This document shows positions 57,428 through 64,000 of a stretch of DNA of 64,000 nt, in pieces. The notes beneath the pieces are model-generated. The model ran no database searches. It was not told the origin of the DNA and saw only the letters and a program-made list of their open reading frames with translations. The stretch's first letter is position 1. Each line of letters begins with the position of its first letter. The stretch comes from Tritrichomonas foetus. Lineage: Eukaryota > Parabasalia > Tritrichomonadida > Tritrichomonadidae. The stretch spans positions 43,233 to 107,232 of the forward strand of contig MLAK01000804.1 of the NCBI GenBank assembly GCA_001839685.1, written 5' to 3'. A program made the position numbers and the translations under genes.

Positions 57428-58582
57428 TTAAGCTCCAGTTTCGATGACTTCATCCTCTTCTTCTTCAGGATTCTGTTGATTTGCTTTGTCGATTTCCCAC
57501 GCATCTTTAAACCATTCATATTTGACGATTTGTTCAAAGGAAGGTCTCTTTTTTGGGTCTTTTTGCAAAACATTTGTTAAGACTTCTTTTAATTCATTTG
57601 AAATAGGTCTACTTTCAGGAAATTCGAGTTCTTCCTGCTCAAGCATTTGTGTAACATGCAGTACAGTATTTGCAATTGAACAGCTCTGCCCGGAATCCAA
57701 ATTGAATGGCAAACGTCCATAAACAGCAGAATAAAGAGTAATTCCATAAGCCCAAACATCTGCCCGCTTTCCATCAAATTTCTCACCACTGCATTCTTCT
57801 GGGGAAAGAAAGGCAGGGGACCCTTTGGTGTCTTCCAGTAAGGTGTCTTCAGATTCGAGTTCTGTTGATACAGAAAAATCAGAAAGCACATAATATGTAT
57901 TAGAAAAGGCTAAAATGTTATCAGGCTTAATGTCTCGATGAACGATATTATTGGAATGTAAATATCGCAGTGCTTCTGCGGTTTGATGGAAGCAGACTGC
58001 AAGACCGTCATCATCGATTGAATTTCCTTTTTCCAGGAGGCTTTGAAGTGTTCCATTTATGGCAAAAGGTAAAATTAGGATGAGCGAATTCGTAACATCA
58101 TCTTCAATCGCCTCAATCAAAGACAAAATGTAAGGATTTGATAATTTGGCCATAATGTCAATTTCTCTGTTTACTTGGTCAAACATTGTTTCATTCGTCC
58201 CCAAATTTTGTTTTGATAATTGAGATTTGTTATAAACTTTAGCTGCACAAATTTCTCCGTTTTCGATGTTTTTTGTGAGGAAAACACGACTCATGGCGCC
58301 TTTTCCAATTTCGTTTAAAAATTGCCATTCGTATATTTGCGCCCGTTCGTTTTGAAGGAGAAAAGAAGCGAATGTTGGATAAGTTTTATTTAAATTATTT
58401 GGAGGCATATCGTTCACTTCATTTGGATTTTGGTTTTCGTCATTTAAAAATTGATATGAATCACCAGCAACTGGCCGTTTTCCGGCAATTGATGCACGTG
58501 AAGATTCGTTATTTTTCTTAGAGGAAGCATTCGCTTGGTCTATTTTAGCTTTTCTCGAAGCAGTTGACCCGCATGCACCCAT
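57428..58582 (-). CDS. CaMKK/SNF1-activating-like kinase, probably acylated
   Basis: This 384-residue Ser/Thr kinase begins MGACGSTASRK, a good N-myristoylation site with adjacent Cys4 for palmitoylation, so membrane attachment is likely. A disordered linker follows to about residue 83. The kinase domain (about 84-362) has GKGAMSRV (93-100), Lys115 in AAKVY, Glu140, HRDIKPDN (215-222), a metal motif DFS (235-237) in place of DFG, and SPAFLSPEE replacing the usual TPAFMAPE. The overall pattern, especially VLSDFSVSTEL and the P-x-F-x-PE segment, resembles CaMKK and LKB1/Sak1-type kinases that phosphorylate AMPK. The C-terminus is acidic. Gly to Ser in DFG is tolerated in some active kinases, so activity is uncertain. 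Confidence 0.8.
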   Translation of the reverse strand: MGACGSTASRKAKIDQANASSKKNNESSRASIAGKRPVAGDSYQFLNDENQNPNEVNDMPPNNLNKTYPTFASFLLQNERAQIYEWQFLNEIGKGAMSRVFLTKNIENGEICAAKVYNKSQLSKQNLGTNETMFDQVNREIDIMAKLSNPYILSLIEAIEDDVTNSLILILPFAINGTLQSLLEKGNSIDDDGLAVCFHQTAEALRYLHSNNIVHRDIKPDNILAFSNTYYVLSDFSVSTELESEDTLLEDTKGSPAFLSPEECSGEKFDGKRADVWAYGITLYSAVYGRLPFNLDSGQSCSIANTVLHVTQMLEQEELEFPESRPISNELKEVLTNVLQKDPKKRPSFEQIVKYEWFKDAWEIDKANQQNPEEEEDEVIETGA

Positions 58583-59212
58583 TTTTCGTATTTGTTAATT
58601 TAACTTTGAAATTTTTAATCGAAATAAAGTCCACTTTTCCAAAAGAAGTGCAACTTTTTGAATTAATTGTAATAAAAGTTGATAACTTTTTCTACACTAT
58701 CGTTCTGCAATTTAAAAAAGATATTGTATCAATATTGTGTAAATTCTTAGAAAAAGGTGAAAAATTGGTGAAAATTTGGAATATTTTCTGAAGGTAACTA
58801 ACGAACTATTATCAAATTTTATTTAACGTCATATCACTTTTTCAATTTTCGGCAAAACTCGTTATTTCGGTGATTGAATTTGGAAATTGTAAACAATTCT
58901 TCTAATAAATGGCCTGCTATTCTTAAAAAGTTATTTGGCTCTCAAAGGCCAATTTATGATTCACCATCACTTTTATCCGATGATTCTGAAATCTACAAGA
59001 ATCGTAGTAAATAGTTTAATATCCTATGAATATATCTTGATAATTATCAATAAAAATCTACTTTTCATTCAATCGCAAATATCATGAAAAAATTTATTGA
59101 GAAAGAAATGTTTTGTAGTTTTATTCCATACCCTGTTTAATTTCCTGCTTGTTTTATATTTTTGATCATTAAAAATGAATGAAAATAAAAAAAAAAAAAT
59201 AATTAAATATAT
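58583..59212. other. Intergenic with ATTCAAAAAGT box
   Basis: About 630 bp. Near the kinase start it contains ATTCAAAAAGT (sense of the kinase; 58653-58663) and GGAAAAGTGGACTTTATTT. The remainder to the guanine deaminase 3' end shows nothing. Confidence 0.5.
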
Positions 59213-60547
59213 TTATATCTGTTTCACGAGTTTTCCACGAACATAAACTTGTATCACATTTCTGTCGTCACCTTGATGGACAAATTTATCAAGTAAATCA
59301 GTTAATTTTTCTGTCCCAAAACAATCAGATATTCCAGCATTCATGTCAACAAGGAGGGCATCAAATTCTTTTCCAACAGTAAAGTTTCCAATCCTATTTT
59401 CCAGACCAACTGCCTTTGCGCCACATTCTGTCGCCAAATAAAGTACGTCCGGAACAGTAAGTGGTTTGTATTCTTCAACTTTTTCTTGGGATGACTCATC
59501 TTCTTTATTTGACGTACGTCTGTTGAACATTACTGCTCTCGAACATAATAACGCATTTCTCATTGAATGAATCATAGAAATCGATTCACCACCAGCAGCA
59601 TCAGTTCCAAGGCTAACATTTACATTTGCCTGTTGGAGTCTTCTGACATCACAGGCACCTGAAAATAGTTGGAAATTGGAAGATGGACAATGCGCGATTG
59701 TGGATTTTGTCTTGGCAAGAAGTTGAAGTTCATTATCAGTTAAATGAACACCATGTGCAAGGATTGTACGAGAATTTAATAATCCATGACTTTCATAAAC
59801 ACCACAATAATGTTCCGAATCCAAGTGAAGTGACTTGACCCATTCAATTTCATTCAAATTTTCAGAAACATGAGATTGAATCAAAAGCGAAGGATTTTCA
59901 TTATGAATGTCAGCCAAACCTTTCATAAGTTCAGACGAGCATGTTGGAACAAACCTTGGCGTAAGTATTGGACTTGTCAGATCGTCGTTCAGTGATGAGT
60001 TTTGAGAGAGGAGCTCATCAACAAATTGTTTGGCATTTTCAATAGCTTCTTGCGTTTTTTCGATATAATAATCAGGTGAATTTCTATCCATTGAAACCTT
60101 CCCAACGTATGCGCGCTGCCCATTCGACCTGCAGATGTCAGCGAGAATTATTGATGCATTCTTGTCAATCGTTGCAAAGTAGACAGCAGTTGTCGTTCCA
60201 CATGCCAGAGTACGTTTAACAACTGCATTGTAGATGCGTTTGGCGTGTTCAAGATCGGAGAATTTGGACTCCGCTGGAAACGTATATGTGTTGAGCCATT
60301 CCAACAGCGGTAAATCTAAACCGCATCCAAGAAAAGCATACTGTGGCGCGTGGATATGGGTGTCAATCAATCCCGGAACGAAAAATTGTGTTGGCGTGGT
60401 TTCGATCAGTTCAAAATCTCCGGGAACGCGGTGGTCGTCAATTGAAACGATTTTCCCGGAGGTGACTGTAATCCATTTGTCCTCAAGTATTTCGAAGTGT
60501 CCATTAACTGTATGAAGGAAATTCCCATGTAAAAGGAGAGATTTCAT
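59213..60547 (-). CDS. GDA: Guanine deaminase
   Basis: This 444-residue enzyme converts guanine to xanthine in purine salvage, important in an organism that cannot make purines. It belongs to the amidohydrolase superfamily. The zinc ligands are visible: H64-x-H66 in IDTHIHAPQYAF, His226 in QSHVSE (with Glu229), His265 or 268 in LAHGVHLT, and Asp316 in GTDAAGG. The PGLIDTHIHAPQYAFLG block and HCPSSNFQLFSG are typical of guanine deaminases rather than other members. The length is normal (about 440-455). No signal peptide; cytosolic. An ATTCAAAAAGT box lies 32 nt upstream of ATG 60547. Confidence 0.93.
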   Translation of the reverse strand: MKSLLLHGNFLHTVNGHFEILEDKWITVTSGKIVSIDDHRVPGDFELIETTPTQFFVPGLIDTHIHAPQYAFLGCGLDLPLLEWLNTYTFPAESKFSDLEHAKRIYNAVVKRTLACGTTTAVYFATIDKNASIILADICRSNGQRAYVGKVSMDRNSPDYYIEKTQEAIENAKQFVDELLSQNSSLNDDLTSPILTPRFVPTCSSELMKGLADIHNENPSLLIQSHVSENLNEIEWVKSLHLDSEHYCGVYESHGLLNSRTILAHGVHLTDNELQLLAKTKSTIAHCPSSNFQLFSGACDVRRLQQANVNVSLGTDAAGGESISMIHSMRNALLCSRAVMFNRRTSNKEDESSQEKVEEYKPLTVPDVLYLATECGAKAVGLENRIGNFTVGKEFDALLVDMNAGISDCFGTEKLTDLLDKFVHQGDDRNVIQVYVRGKLVKQI

Positions 60548-60837
60548 GGTTTGATAAGTAATGAATTGAATACATTAGACTTTTTGAATATATTTTTTGA
60601 ATAGATTGATGATGCGGATTTATTCAATATTTTGTCATTGTCATTCTTAAATTGTTTTTAAAATGAACGATGAATTCAAAAATTGAATCTATTCAATTTA
60701 TTTCATGTTCGATTGGTAAAAAGGGTTGAAAACCATCAACATTTTCGCAAGACTATAAATGATCGAACACTTCTGAATTGAGAAGAGATGAAGAATAAAA
60801 AAAAGCATTAGGTGGCTATTTATATTCATAGATAAAA

Positions 60838-61200: not shown

Positions 61201-61821
61201 TCTACATTTCATTTAACTTTGATAATTATTTCTGAGATATAGAAAGTTTACTTTTCAACAGAATAGCCATCAAAATAATCATTCCATAACCTTATTATAT
61301 TTCCCTTTTTCAACCCTTGCCAAAATTAAAATGAAATTTGGGAATAAGTTAAATAGCTATAAACTTCCATTAAGGGGCAACTGACATATGAAGTGACCGA
61401 ATGAAAAAAATGAAGTGATTGTTTCTATGTGATCTCTCAATCGTGATTTGACAGGATTTNTCANAAAAGAATTGAATGCATAAAAAATAGTTCTTTCAAT
61501 TTTTTTTTTGTGTGCATTCAAATGATCATATTAATCGAAAAAAATTCTCTTTATCAGAAGATTAGTAATGCTTACTTTTATTCTTTAATTGGTATGCAAT
61601 AATATATATATATCGAATAATGAAGACTTTTGCGCAAGAAAAAATGGTGCAATTTCATATGATTTTGTGATCAAGTTTTGGCGATACAGTTTTAGATAAA
61701 CATGCATATAGCGTGGGAATTTTAACTTATTTTAAAAGTAATAAAATCGATAAAATATTTATATATTATAAAAAAATAGTTACTTAATTGTTTATTTTTC
61801 CCCTCCTGTTTTTATAATCTC
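61201..61821. other. Intergenic with ambiguous bases
   Basis: About 620 bp between the tRNA and the transposase-USP stop. Two undetermined bases occur at 61460 and 61464. A TA-rich run (ATATATATAT) lies near 61601. No gene or clear terminal inverted repeat is visible. Confidence 0.6.
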
Positions 61822-64000
61822 TTACAGATCCTGCATAATTTGCTCATATAATAAAATTTCTGGCCGTGATTTTTTGTCAATCTCAAAAGGACTTTTTATT
61901 TGATTGATAAATGAATCTGAAATCAAGAACCACTTATTATTTTGGCGTACTACATCGAAATAATGCCCAGAATCTGGTAAATCTCGGAAATAAACTATCG
62001 ATTTCATTGAATATAATTTTTGATTTATATGAAGTGTTTCTTTGATGTGAAAAATTTGTTCATAATTCGAATCAGTTAAATGAATAATTAAGAGAATGTT
62101 GATGGACACAATTTGAGTCATCATTAAAGGAGTATTTCTACAGAACTGACAAATACTATCATTTATAGGTTCATTTTTACAACAATCTTCAATATTTTGT
62201 AATTCAGAGCATGAAATTGAGTAAAGTAGGTTATTTTCCAACACTTCATTTCGAGCGCCACATTGTGAGCATAAAATGGATTTAGCAATAAATCCAGTCA
62301 TATTTGCTATCATATTATATTTTTCTTCTAAGTCGTTCAATAAAAATAGTAAAAACGCAGAGGTATCTCCTTTTTCATTGTACTTGATTGTTTGTGTAGA
62401 ATTATTAATATAATAATTTATTATATAATCAATATCTCTTTTGTTAACGATGTCTTTTGTACATTTTTTCAAAAATAATAACAAATCGTCTTCTTTATTG
62501 AATAATAATAGCTTAGTTCGAAAATGCTCTGAACTCATTAATAATTGAATTCCACTGTTTATGTAACAATTATTAGCTATATTATATAAACGAAAAATAT
62601 TTCCTAGTAATGCTTGATCAAGAAATAGTTTCCCAAAGTTAAACAAATCGAAAATGGTCATAGAAAACCAATCATCTGCATTGATGTCCTTAAAAAAAGA
62701 ATCTTCTTCAGGTGAATTGAAGTTGGTTTCACGAAAATCTAAATCGTTTGTTTCTTCTTCTTCTTTGAAATCTGAATGAAGGACATCAGTTTCCCGAAAT
62801 TCTATATTTATTGGAGTGAAAACTTTCTTTAATTTGTAATCACCTTCTTTCCTCCCTGATTGTCTCCTAAGATTTCTAGTTTTGTTTTTTTGTTGTATAT
62901 ATTTTTCTGTTTGTTGCTTTTCTTTGTTTAGGGTTTTTCGCAGTATATATTTATCGATAATTTGTTTATTATGATCATTTAATTCTGCGATATTAAAATT
63001 GTTCATGAGCTGGTAATAAAACTTGTGCCCCTCATTCCAAAGTAAAACCGTAATTTTCATTCTGGTTGAAAAAGTCATTTTCCAAGATTTATTTTTGGGA
63101 GCCAGTTTGATTTTGAGTGAATGTAAACTTTCATTACATTGAGTATTCTTATGGGGTTCTGTTTTTTCAAAGATAATAACATTATCATCAAGAAACGTAT
63201 CAAGTCTATTTTTTAAATTAATATTTTTCGCAAAAGCTGGAATTTTAAAATCAATTAAATTCTCATGCAAACATTTCTGATGGTTATTCGAAAAATGTTC
63301 TGTAATATTAAAAAATTGTTCTTTTTTTGTTATCAGAGGTAAATCTCTGTCAAGCATCAGGACTTTAACGAATTTTAAAAAAGACTTGATTATATCTGAA
63401 AATATATTTTTATTGTCGAAATTAAATTTAAGAAAACGGTTTTTAAATTGCTTATATGCGTGATTTACATCTATAAATTGAATAATTTTCCAGTTCAACT
63501 TAGTAAATATTCCACCTACATTGTTATCGTTATCCATTGTGATACTATCTATTTTTGATAATGAACACCATTTAGAACTTAATTTATTTAAAATTTCTGA
63601 TTCAAGTGACTGGGGAAATCCTTCGCAATTTCCAATAGACCAATGGCTTTTTAATGACACTACATAATAGTCAATTATCTTTTGTGTTGCTAAATCTATG
63701 AAAGCACCAAAGCATTCATGTGCATTTCTTGGGTGAGACCAAGCAGAATCAAATGAAATGCTTGACTTTTCATTCATCATAGAGCGAGCATTTCTCAATG
63801 ATTCATTTGTTAAATCATTTAATATCTCATCCACTTTTTTAGTTAAACGTAAATAATGCTTTTCTGAGATTGTGGCTATATTTAATTTAGCCAGAAATCG
63901 TTCAGCTTGACTAAATGATAAACCTTCTGTCAGGCAACTGAGCGTAAATTGAAGAGGATCAACTTTTTCATTACATATTTTATGTAAAAGATTTTTTTTT
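61822..64000 (-). CDS. Mutator-like transposase fused to USP (C19) deubiquitinase; 5' partial
   Basis: The frame is open from its stop at 61822 to the window edge, so the start lies beyond 64000. Position numbers here count the GTG at 63834 as 1. Upstream of it the frame continues with LSCLTEGLSFSQAERFLAKL. Residues 20-300 match a Mutator-like DDE transposase: SISFDSAW (Asp29), YYVVSLKSHWSIGNCEG, ITMDNDNN (Asp101/103), DVNHAYKQFKNRF and NTQCNESLHS (Glu235). A basic and then acidic linker (300-405) follows. Residues 414-667 are a USP catalytic domain: Cys box YNIANNCYINSGIQLL (Cys423), zinc-finger pairs CSQC (522/525) and CQFC (562/565), and His box SGHYFDVVRQNNKWFLISDS (His624, Asp640). All catalytic positions appear intact. 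It is probably a mobile-element protein, or a gene domesticated from one. Confidence 0.82.
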   Translation of the reverse strand, partial: KKNLLHKICNEKVDPLQFTLSCLTEGLSFSQAERFLAKLNIATISEKHYLRLTKKVDEILNDLTNESLRNARSMMNEKSSISFDSAWSHPRNAHECFGAFIDLATQKIIDYYVVSLKSHWSIGNCEGFPQSLESEILNKLSSKWCSLSKIDSITMDNDNNVGGIFTKLNWKIIQFIDVNHAYKQFKNRFLKFNFDNKNIFSDIIKSFLKFVKVLMLDRDLPLITKKEQFFNITEHFSNNHQKCLHENLIDFKIPAFAKNINLKNRLDTFLDDNVIIFEKTEPHKNTQCNESLHSLKIKLAPKNKSWKMTFSTRMKITVLLWNEGHKFYYQLMNNFNIAELNDHNKQIIDKYILRKTLNKEKQQTEKYIQQKNKTRNLRRQSGRKEGDYKLKKVFTPINIEFRETDVLHSDFKEEEETNDLDFRETNFNSPEEDSFFKDINADDWFSMTIFDLFNFGKLFLDQALLGNIFRLYNIANNCYINSGIQLLMSSEHFRTKLLLFNKEDDLLLFLKKCTKDIVNKRDIDYIINYYINNSTQTIKYNEKGDTSAFLLFLLNDLEEKYNMIANMTGFIAKSILCSQCGARNEVLENNLLYSISCSELQNIEDCCKNEPINDSICQFCRNTPLMMTQIVSINILLIIHLTDSNYEQIFHIKETLHINQKLYSMKSIVYFRDLPDSGHYFDVVRQNNKWFLISDSFINQIKSPFEIDKKSRPEILLYEQIMQDL

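Follow-up and report, generated by a model that had tools for sequence, protein, structure and literature searches.

Why transposons carry proteases of the ubiquitin and SUMO pathways is a question to which, to our knowledge, only hypotheses have so far been offered. It is raised by one end of a 64,000-nucleotide stretch of the Tritrichomonas foetus genome (contig MLAK01000804.1, here also C414, positions 43,233 to 107,232; the whole stretch is referred to as the window), where a single open frame joins a Mutator-like transposase to a deubiquitinase of the ubiquitin-specific protease (USP) class. What kind of element encodes this protein, and what could the protease do for it? Judging from the sequences of its copies, the element is almost certainly a transposon of approximately 3.4 kb that inserts at TTAA and encodes a Mutator-like DDE transposase with a complete C-terminal USP.

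One frame with two enzyme domains

The transposase and the USP share one frame, as the initial annotation had stated: the Pfam models PF20700 (Mutator) and PF00443 (UCH) both match the same 725-codon frame above their cut-offs, and ten copies, described below, are complete at 100% identity. The parts of the element in the window are as follows.

61822..63999, minus strand: open frame for transposase and USP, 725 codons and a stop, its 5' part lost to the window end and an assembly gap
63268..63951, minus strand: Mutator-like transposase match, residues 17-244 (PF20700, 48.4 bits against a cut-off of 26.5, E 8.5e-13)
63748..63750, minus strand: candidate catalytic Asp, D84, aligned opposite an Asp of the diverged relatives L058 and L056
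63526..63534, minus strand: candidate catalytic Asp, D156/D158, in columns invariant in a four-sequence alignment
63130..63132, minus strand: candidate catalytic Glu, E290, in a column invariant in a four-sequence alignment
61846..62592, minus strand: USP (UCH, C19) domain, residues 470-718 (PF00443, 51.2 bits against a cut-off of 23.9, E 1.7e-13)
62566..62568, minus strand: putative catalytic Cys, C478, matching the Cys box of USP12 and invariant in 16 sequences
61963..61965, minus strand: putative catalytic His, H679, placed by alignment with the His box of USP12 and nearly invariant in 16 sequences
61915..61917, minus strand: putative catalytic Asp, D695, placed by alignment with USP12 and nearly invariant in 16 sequences
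61374..61387, no strand assigned: 14-bp terminal inverted repeat GGGGCAACTGACAT at the 3' end of the element, from an exact-end search with no hit in the reversed control
61370..61373, no strand assigned: TTAA, the target-site copy at the 3' end (this end as a whole is C414:104602-104619, window 61370-61387)

Position 64000 is the final base ahead of a run of N (C414:107233-108590), and since the window ends at the edge of this gap, the 5' part of the element can be read from other copies alone. Of the two things that extension past 64000 had been expected to reveal, the start falls in the gap, whereas the terminal repeats could be read in ten complete copies.

In the transposase half, the D84 column, D156/D158 and E290 are retained in alignments with relatives wherever they can be read, and every catalytic residue named in the initial annotation, together with two CxxC pairs, is present once its local numbering is shifted by 55. 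With a limit of E 1, a Pfam scan of the window protein reports Mutator but no model for piggyBac, and NCBIfam gives no match for this protein or for L058. When databases were searched with this protein and with the alignment of the transposases, each search scoring the approximately 8000 candidates that shared most words, one protein was returned, that of T. foetus's own element, and scans of IMG/VR with the transposase alignment and with protein P0003 found no relatives.

The USP half contains the Cys/His/Asp triad in the Cys and His boxes that define USPs (C478, H679 and D695), the 16-sequence alignment consisting of the window protein and 15 of 24 database proteins; the CxxC pairs are at residues 577-580 and 617-620. 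Structure prediction had been proposed as a check; an alignment-based model predicts a USP fold, and the top matches of a structure search are USPs, with structures of the SAGA deubiquitinase (DUB) module (Ubp8) also close to it in fold. By sequence, the sole solved relatives at E <= 0.1 are USP12 and USP46, which are also at the top of the structural list. Prediction from the single sequence failed to give a USP fold (mean pLDDT 32.4) and was not used. The intact triad and the predicted fold lead us to infer that the USP is catalytic.

Ahead of the frame, other copies contain a piece of approximately 200 residues with a coiled coil, located upstream of a run of A. Zinc fingers are frequent in Mutator-like elements (MULEs), but not universal, and in this piece no Pfam model exceeds its cut-off, those below it being mostly coiled-coil models. 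L003-L005 have no N there, and their upstream piece is out of frame with the 725 codons at the A-run; C287 and C545 contain an N at this place in the assembly, and the frame continues through it for 928 codons. This disagreement may stem either from an uncertain assembly or from frame-shifting during expression. The junction lies at L039:4000-4040 and at the equivalent place in other copies.

Copies, ends and target site

The genome assembly searched comprises 63.7 Mb in 1064 contigs. The further two-domain copies for which a search had been suggested are present: all 725 residues are covered at 100% in 10 of 50 genome matches, on ten contigs with the window copy counted, each in one frame, and the USP half by itself is found whole at 100% at 15 places. 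Both ends of the element are seen in 10 of 16 fetched loci, giving lengths of 3302-3488 bp, and the aligned pieces of these ten complete copies are 99-100% identical to the copy on C148, which served as reference. Exact copies of the end GGGGCAACTGACAT number 41 in the genome, against none in the reversed control, and TTAA adjoins all 41 of them. The copy on C455, 1131 bp long, has both ends and has lost approximately 2.3 kb of the interior, and so resembles a non-autonomous derivative. Transposition is deduced from the near-identical copies, the terminal repeats and the structure of the target site, and the near identity of the copies suggests recent activity.

No duplication beyond TTAA is found in the ten complete copies or in the 1131-bp copy. 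The C148 copy (L039) interrupts a host gene, and rejoining its flanks around a single TTAA gives a host frame of 527 codons that reads across the site; the join without TTAA gives 70 codons, and with two TTAA the frame begins a few codons ahead of the join. The joined protein has 21 non-self matches at 21-36% identity, 19 of which, at 21-31% identity, start at or before residue 31 and cross the join (39/40), with the remaining two starting at residues 37 and 43; this paralogue comparison covers the C148 copy and gives match ranges rather than gap positions. Across 11 copies, the open-frame test of empty sites had a mixed outcome. One TTAA is favoured at C148 and at C435 (L046), while the genic copies on C436 (L050) and C507 (L051) have a longer frame with no TTAA, against a one-TTAA site, which may be chance; the remaining seven have no spanning frame above 103 codons, the longest among them, at C585 (L041), again being one without TTAA. 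In the short tandem array that surrounds the C287 copy, a join containing one TTAA and 8-base flanks is present at one further place in the locus, and those containing none or two are absent; with flanks of 10 bases or more there is no occurrence of any join.

This target site complicates classification. A TTAA target and short terminal repeats are features of piggyBac, and the element resembles piggyBac in both, but its transposase matches Mutator PF20700 and is not of the piggyBac type. With MULEs it shares the Mutator-type DDE transposase and the terminal inverted repeats, which at 14 bp without TTAA lie at the low end of the 14-500 bp given for MULEs; the target-site duplications given there are 8-11 bp (PMC6446971, relevant section), and the canonical MULE was rejected as a candidate because the target here is TTAA. 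The earlier designation as Mutator-like is thus apt for the type of transposase and not for a canonical MULE. The TvMULEs of Trichomonas vaginalis are likewise parabasalid Mutator-like elements, but the tabulated part of their description gives target duplications of 10-14 bp for TvMULE2-4, and the words protease and ubiquitin are absent from the main text of that paper (PMC2725143).

A related, palindrome-like miniature family of 238 bp with ends TTAAGGGTCAACTGCCAT (L064, L065, L066) has TTAA only in all three copies fetched. A list of ends with 3 mismatches or fewer, 119 in all compared with 20 for the control, includes several dozen of these. A related TTAA transposase may mobilise the family.

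Diverged relatives of the element also exist. L057 (C755), 29% identical, has a UCH match of 25.1 bits (cut-off 23.9), and its transposase match reaches the Mutator cut-off only together with its neighbours in the frame. L058 (C802), 26% identical, has an unbroken frame of 770 codons and a USP that retains Cys, His and Asp, although its UCH match, at 23.6 bits (E 4.5e-5), is just below the cut-off of 23.9; Pfam finds no Mutator match in its transposase half, the kinship of which is seen by direct comparison. At L056:1000-2700, the N-terminal part resembles the ankyrin-type DUF3447 (E 3.3e-4, below cut-off), and L057:394-1353 is similar to it by eye; the transposase may here carry a third fused domain.

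The neighbours of the element in the window are ordinary host genes, encoding a protein kinase (57428-58594) and an amidohydrolase (59213-60574). A trichomonad initiator-like motif lies upstream of 1 of 18 window frames, which is not above the background of 0.068 per 30-mer.

A second family with the opposite layout

A UCH search of the genome gives at least 143 matches (142 of 205 candidates scored) and none in 14 control genomes, those named in the companion searches being prokaryotes. Many of the matches lie in frames of 2200-2700 codons, which represent a large expansion of host USPs. Six matches of equal score near the end of the list are 747-codon frames of a second mobile family.

L055:1215-3301 and L059 (C21): second family, 747-codon frame; 708 codons at C826

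Here the USP is N-terminal (PF00443, E 7.7e-24) and is followed by a C-terminal DDE_3 domain (PF13358, E 7.3e-24, 84.7 bits against a cut-off of 28.6), which places the transposase in the DDE_3/IS630 type of the Tc1/mariner/IS630 superfamily; the match to the IS630-type model NF033545 (E 6.8e-20, 71.7 bits) is below its cut-off of 100. The protein matches at 100% over 570 residues at nine places in the genome. Elements of the Tc1/mariner/IS630 superfamily duplicate TA at the target site. The 5' end of the second family starts TACAGTCG, the DNA matches of other copies begin within approximately 15 bases of it and there are many short derivatives of that end, whilst both 3' ends that were read pass into N.

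A further lineage, L060 (674 codons, approximately 55% identical over the matched part), also has both domains in one frame. Between the second family and L060, the ratio of non-synonymous to synonymous differences per site (pN/pS) is 0.40 for the USP (95% interval 0.33-0.48, 308 codons) and 0.13 for the DDE domain (0.09-0.19, 167 codons), so both halves have been under purifying selection; for L060 against L063 the interval, 0.24-1.31, is uninformatively wide. The DDE_3 matches that lie in frames with a USP number 10 of 73 in the genome, a count, rather than a tree, that suggests acquisition within a single branch. Likeness between the USPs of the two families extends over only 42 residues, at 26% identity, and their closest relatives in the Protein Data Bank differ, being USP12/46 for the Mutator-like family and USP2 for the second; this short likeness and these differing relatives, again a comparison rather than a tree, point to separate captures.

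By eye, the second-family protein corresponds to the T. foetus record TRFO_12536 and L060 to TRFO_27008, and these are the only proteins with PF00443 and PF13358 together among 24 database matches at E <= 10 (approximately 8000 candidates scored). Their public names are hypothetical protein and USP domain-containing protein, behind which the transposase domain is hidden. The two families meet on C373, a transposon-rich contig of 66 kb with decayed copies of the Mutator-USP element, a diverged mariner-USP copy with an intact frame and an end of the miniature element.

What the tethered protease might do

To the initial annotation, a USP attached to a transposase was an unfamiliar combination, but it has a precedent: T. 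vaginalis XP_001314237.1 joins transposase_11 to Peptidase C19, according to the passage in Bao and others 2010, citing Gladyshev and Arkhipova 2009 (PMC2836005). That protein, from a related parabasalid, is similar in that a C19 (USP-type) peptidase is attached to a transposase, and differs in that transposase_11 (PF01609) is of another superfamily and that the passage gives a single protein, with no element, copies or ends; a PF01609 search of the T. foetus genome found no transposase_11 match. The same passage places ULP1 and OTU domains in Mutator, Ginger1 and Helitron elements. They too are cysteine proteases of the ubiquitin/SUMO pathway within a transposon protein, C-terminal in Ginger1 as in our element, but belong to the Ulp1 and OTU peptidase families and not to C19. 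The VTD deubiquitinases of Helentrons, which are also carried by a transposon, are proposed in the relevant part of their description to shield transposition proteins from the proteasome (PMC9741609); they are of a different deubiquitinase class, and their rolling-circle elements have no DDE transposase. Among the listed matches in the retrieved portions of open-licence PubMed Central, a scope outside which Repbase and most subscription journals lie, none describes a USP carried by a Mutator-like or Tc1/mariner transposase. The USP fusion in two superfamilies and the TTAA target are the surprising features; C19 on transposase_11 in T. vaginalis was already known.

The best explanation, which as a whole we judge to have an even chance of being correct, is a recently active cut-and-paste transposon whose tethered USP protects its own transposase. 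The USP would take ubiquitin off the transposase and its complex partners in cis, and the host would thereby be unable to tag the transposase for the proteasome or to remove the complex before insertion and repair are complete. Self-protection is preferred because tethering alone is the common feature of the fusions in the two superfamilies; the presence of the USP at opposite ends fits a shared need for tethering, and not for one fixed geometry.

Several observations weigh against this explanation. In the C436 copy, the transposase and USP parts are out of frame, with N and approximately 140 fewer bases between them, and the C507 copy is also frame-broken; the L057 frame contains one stop, and its locus sequence stops ahead of the His box. 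In L056 (C592, 32% identical) all that follows the transposase is a USP remnant, which shares 44% identity with the USP of L057 across 43 residues, and L062 (C339), with a transposase at 27% in a 425-codon frame, has no USP in its downstream frames by eye, the Pfam scan there covering a 223-residue piece; the USP therefore seems dispensable for some relatives. Intact catalytic residues had been taken to argue for selection, and a measure of dN/dS proposed. The residues are indeed intact, but between the window and L058 pN/pS is 0.73 for the transposase and 0.79 for the USP (interval 0.66-0.93) with synonymous sites saturated, which is weak evidence of constraint on the USP within the Mutator-like family. 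In addition, short-read assembly may inflate the apparent likeness of copies, and the structure search gives no information on the substrate of the USP.

Several of these points would suit a USP that is merely a passenger, a host fragment captured in frame, functionless and decaying, somewhat like the cargo of Pack-MULEs. The decayed USP of L056, the many stops in the element copies on C373, the broken frames on C436 and C507 and the apparent lack of a USP on C339 speak for this, yet the window copy has the full triad, both CxxC pairs and nearly the full Pfam length, its transposase is intact and in frame, and USPs are kept in relatives at approximately 25% identity, making a passenger improbable. 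That the join is an assembly artefact is for practical purposes refuted: the window stops at a gap, and gaps truncate several copies, but ten contigs share the join, the ten complete copies have terminal repeats outside it and different flanks, and diverged relatives have the same domain order, so the misassembly that the initial annotation had allowed for is not borne out.

Two other roles for an active USP have to be set beside self-protection. It could act on chromatin, which the initial annotation had suggested beside the transposon's own protein as a target, deubiquitinating histones at donor or target sites and so opening chromatin or evading silencing; its tethering to a necessarily DNA-binding protein and the Ubp8 structures of the SAGA DUB module among its close fold matches speak for this role, which we nonetheless regard as unlikely. 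The USP1/USP12/USP46 group is WDR48-dependent, and USP1 acts on FANCD2 and PCNA. Like this group, the USP could act in repair, steering the repair of the excision gap, as the position of USP12 and USP46 among its solved relatives would allow. A link between transposon proteases and repair was already proposed by Bao and others (PMC2836005, same passage), and for this element we consider such a role distinctly unlikely.

If self-protection by a tethered USP is retained as the working explanation, its wider form is that parabasalid transposons have repeatedly tethered a deubiquitinase, independently in Mutator-like and Tc1/mariner/IS630-like elements and in a third superfamily in T. vaginalis, with the Mutator-like lineage being a new, TTAA-switched branch. 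We advance this generalisation tentatively, as possible but somewhat short of an even chance. One protist, a parasite of cattle, has the same enzyme class in two transposase superfamilies in opposite layouts, and adds a TTAA-targeting Mutator-type transposase to those known. If the generalisation is true, ubiquitin tagging of transposases would be a general host check on transposition.
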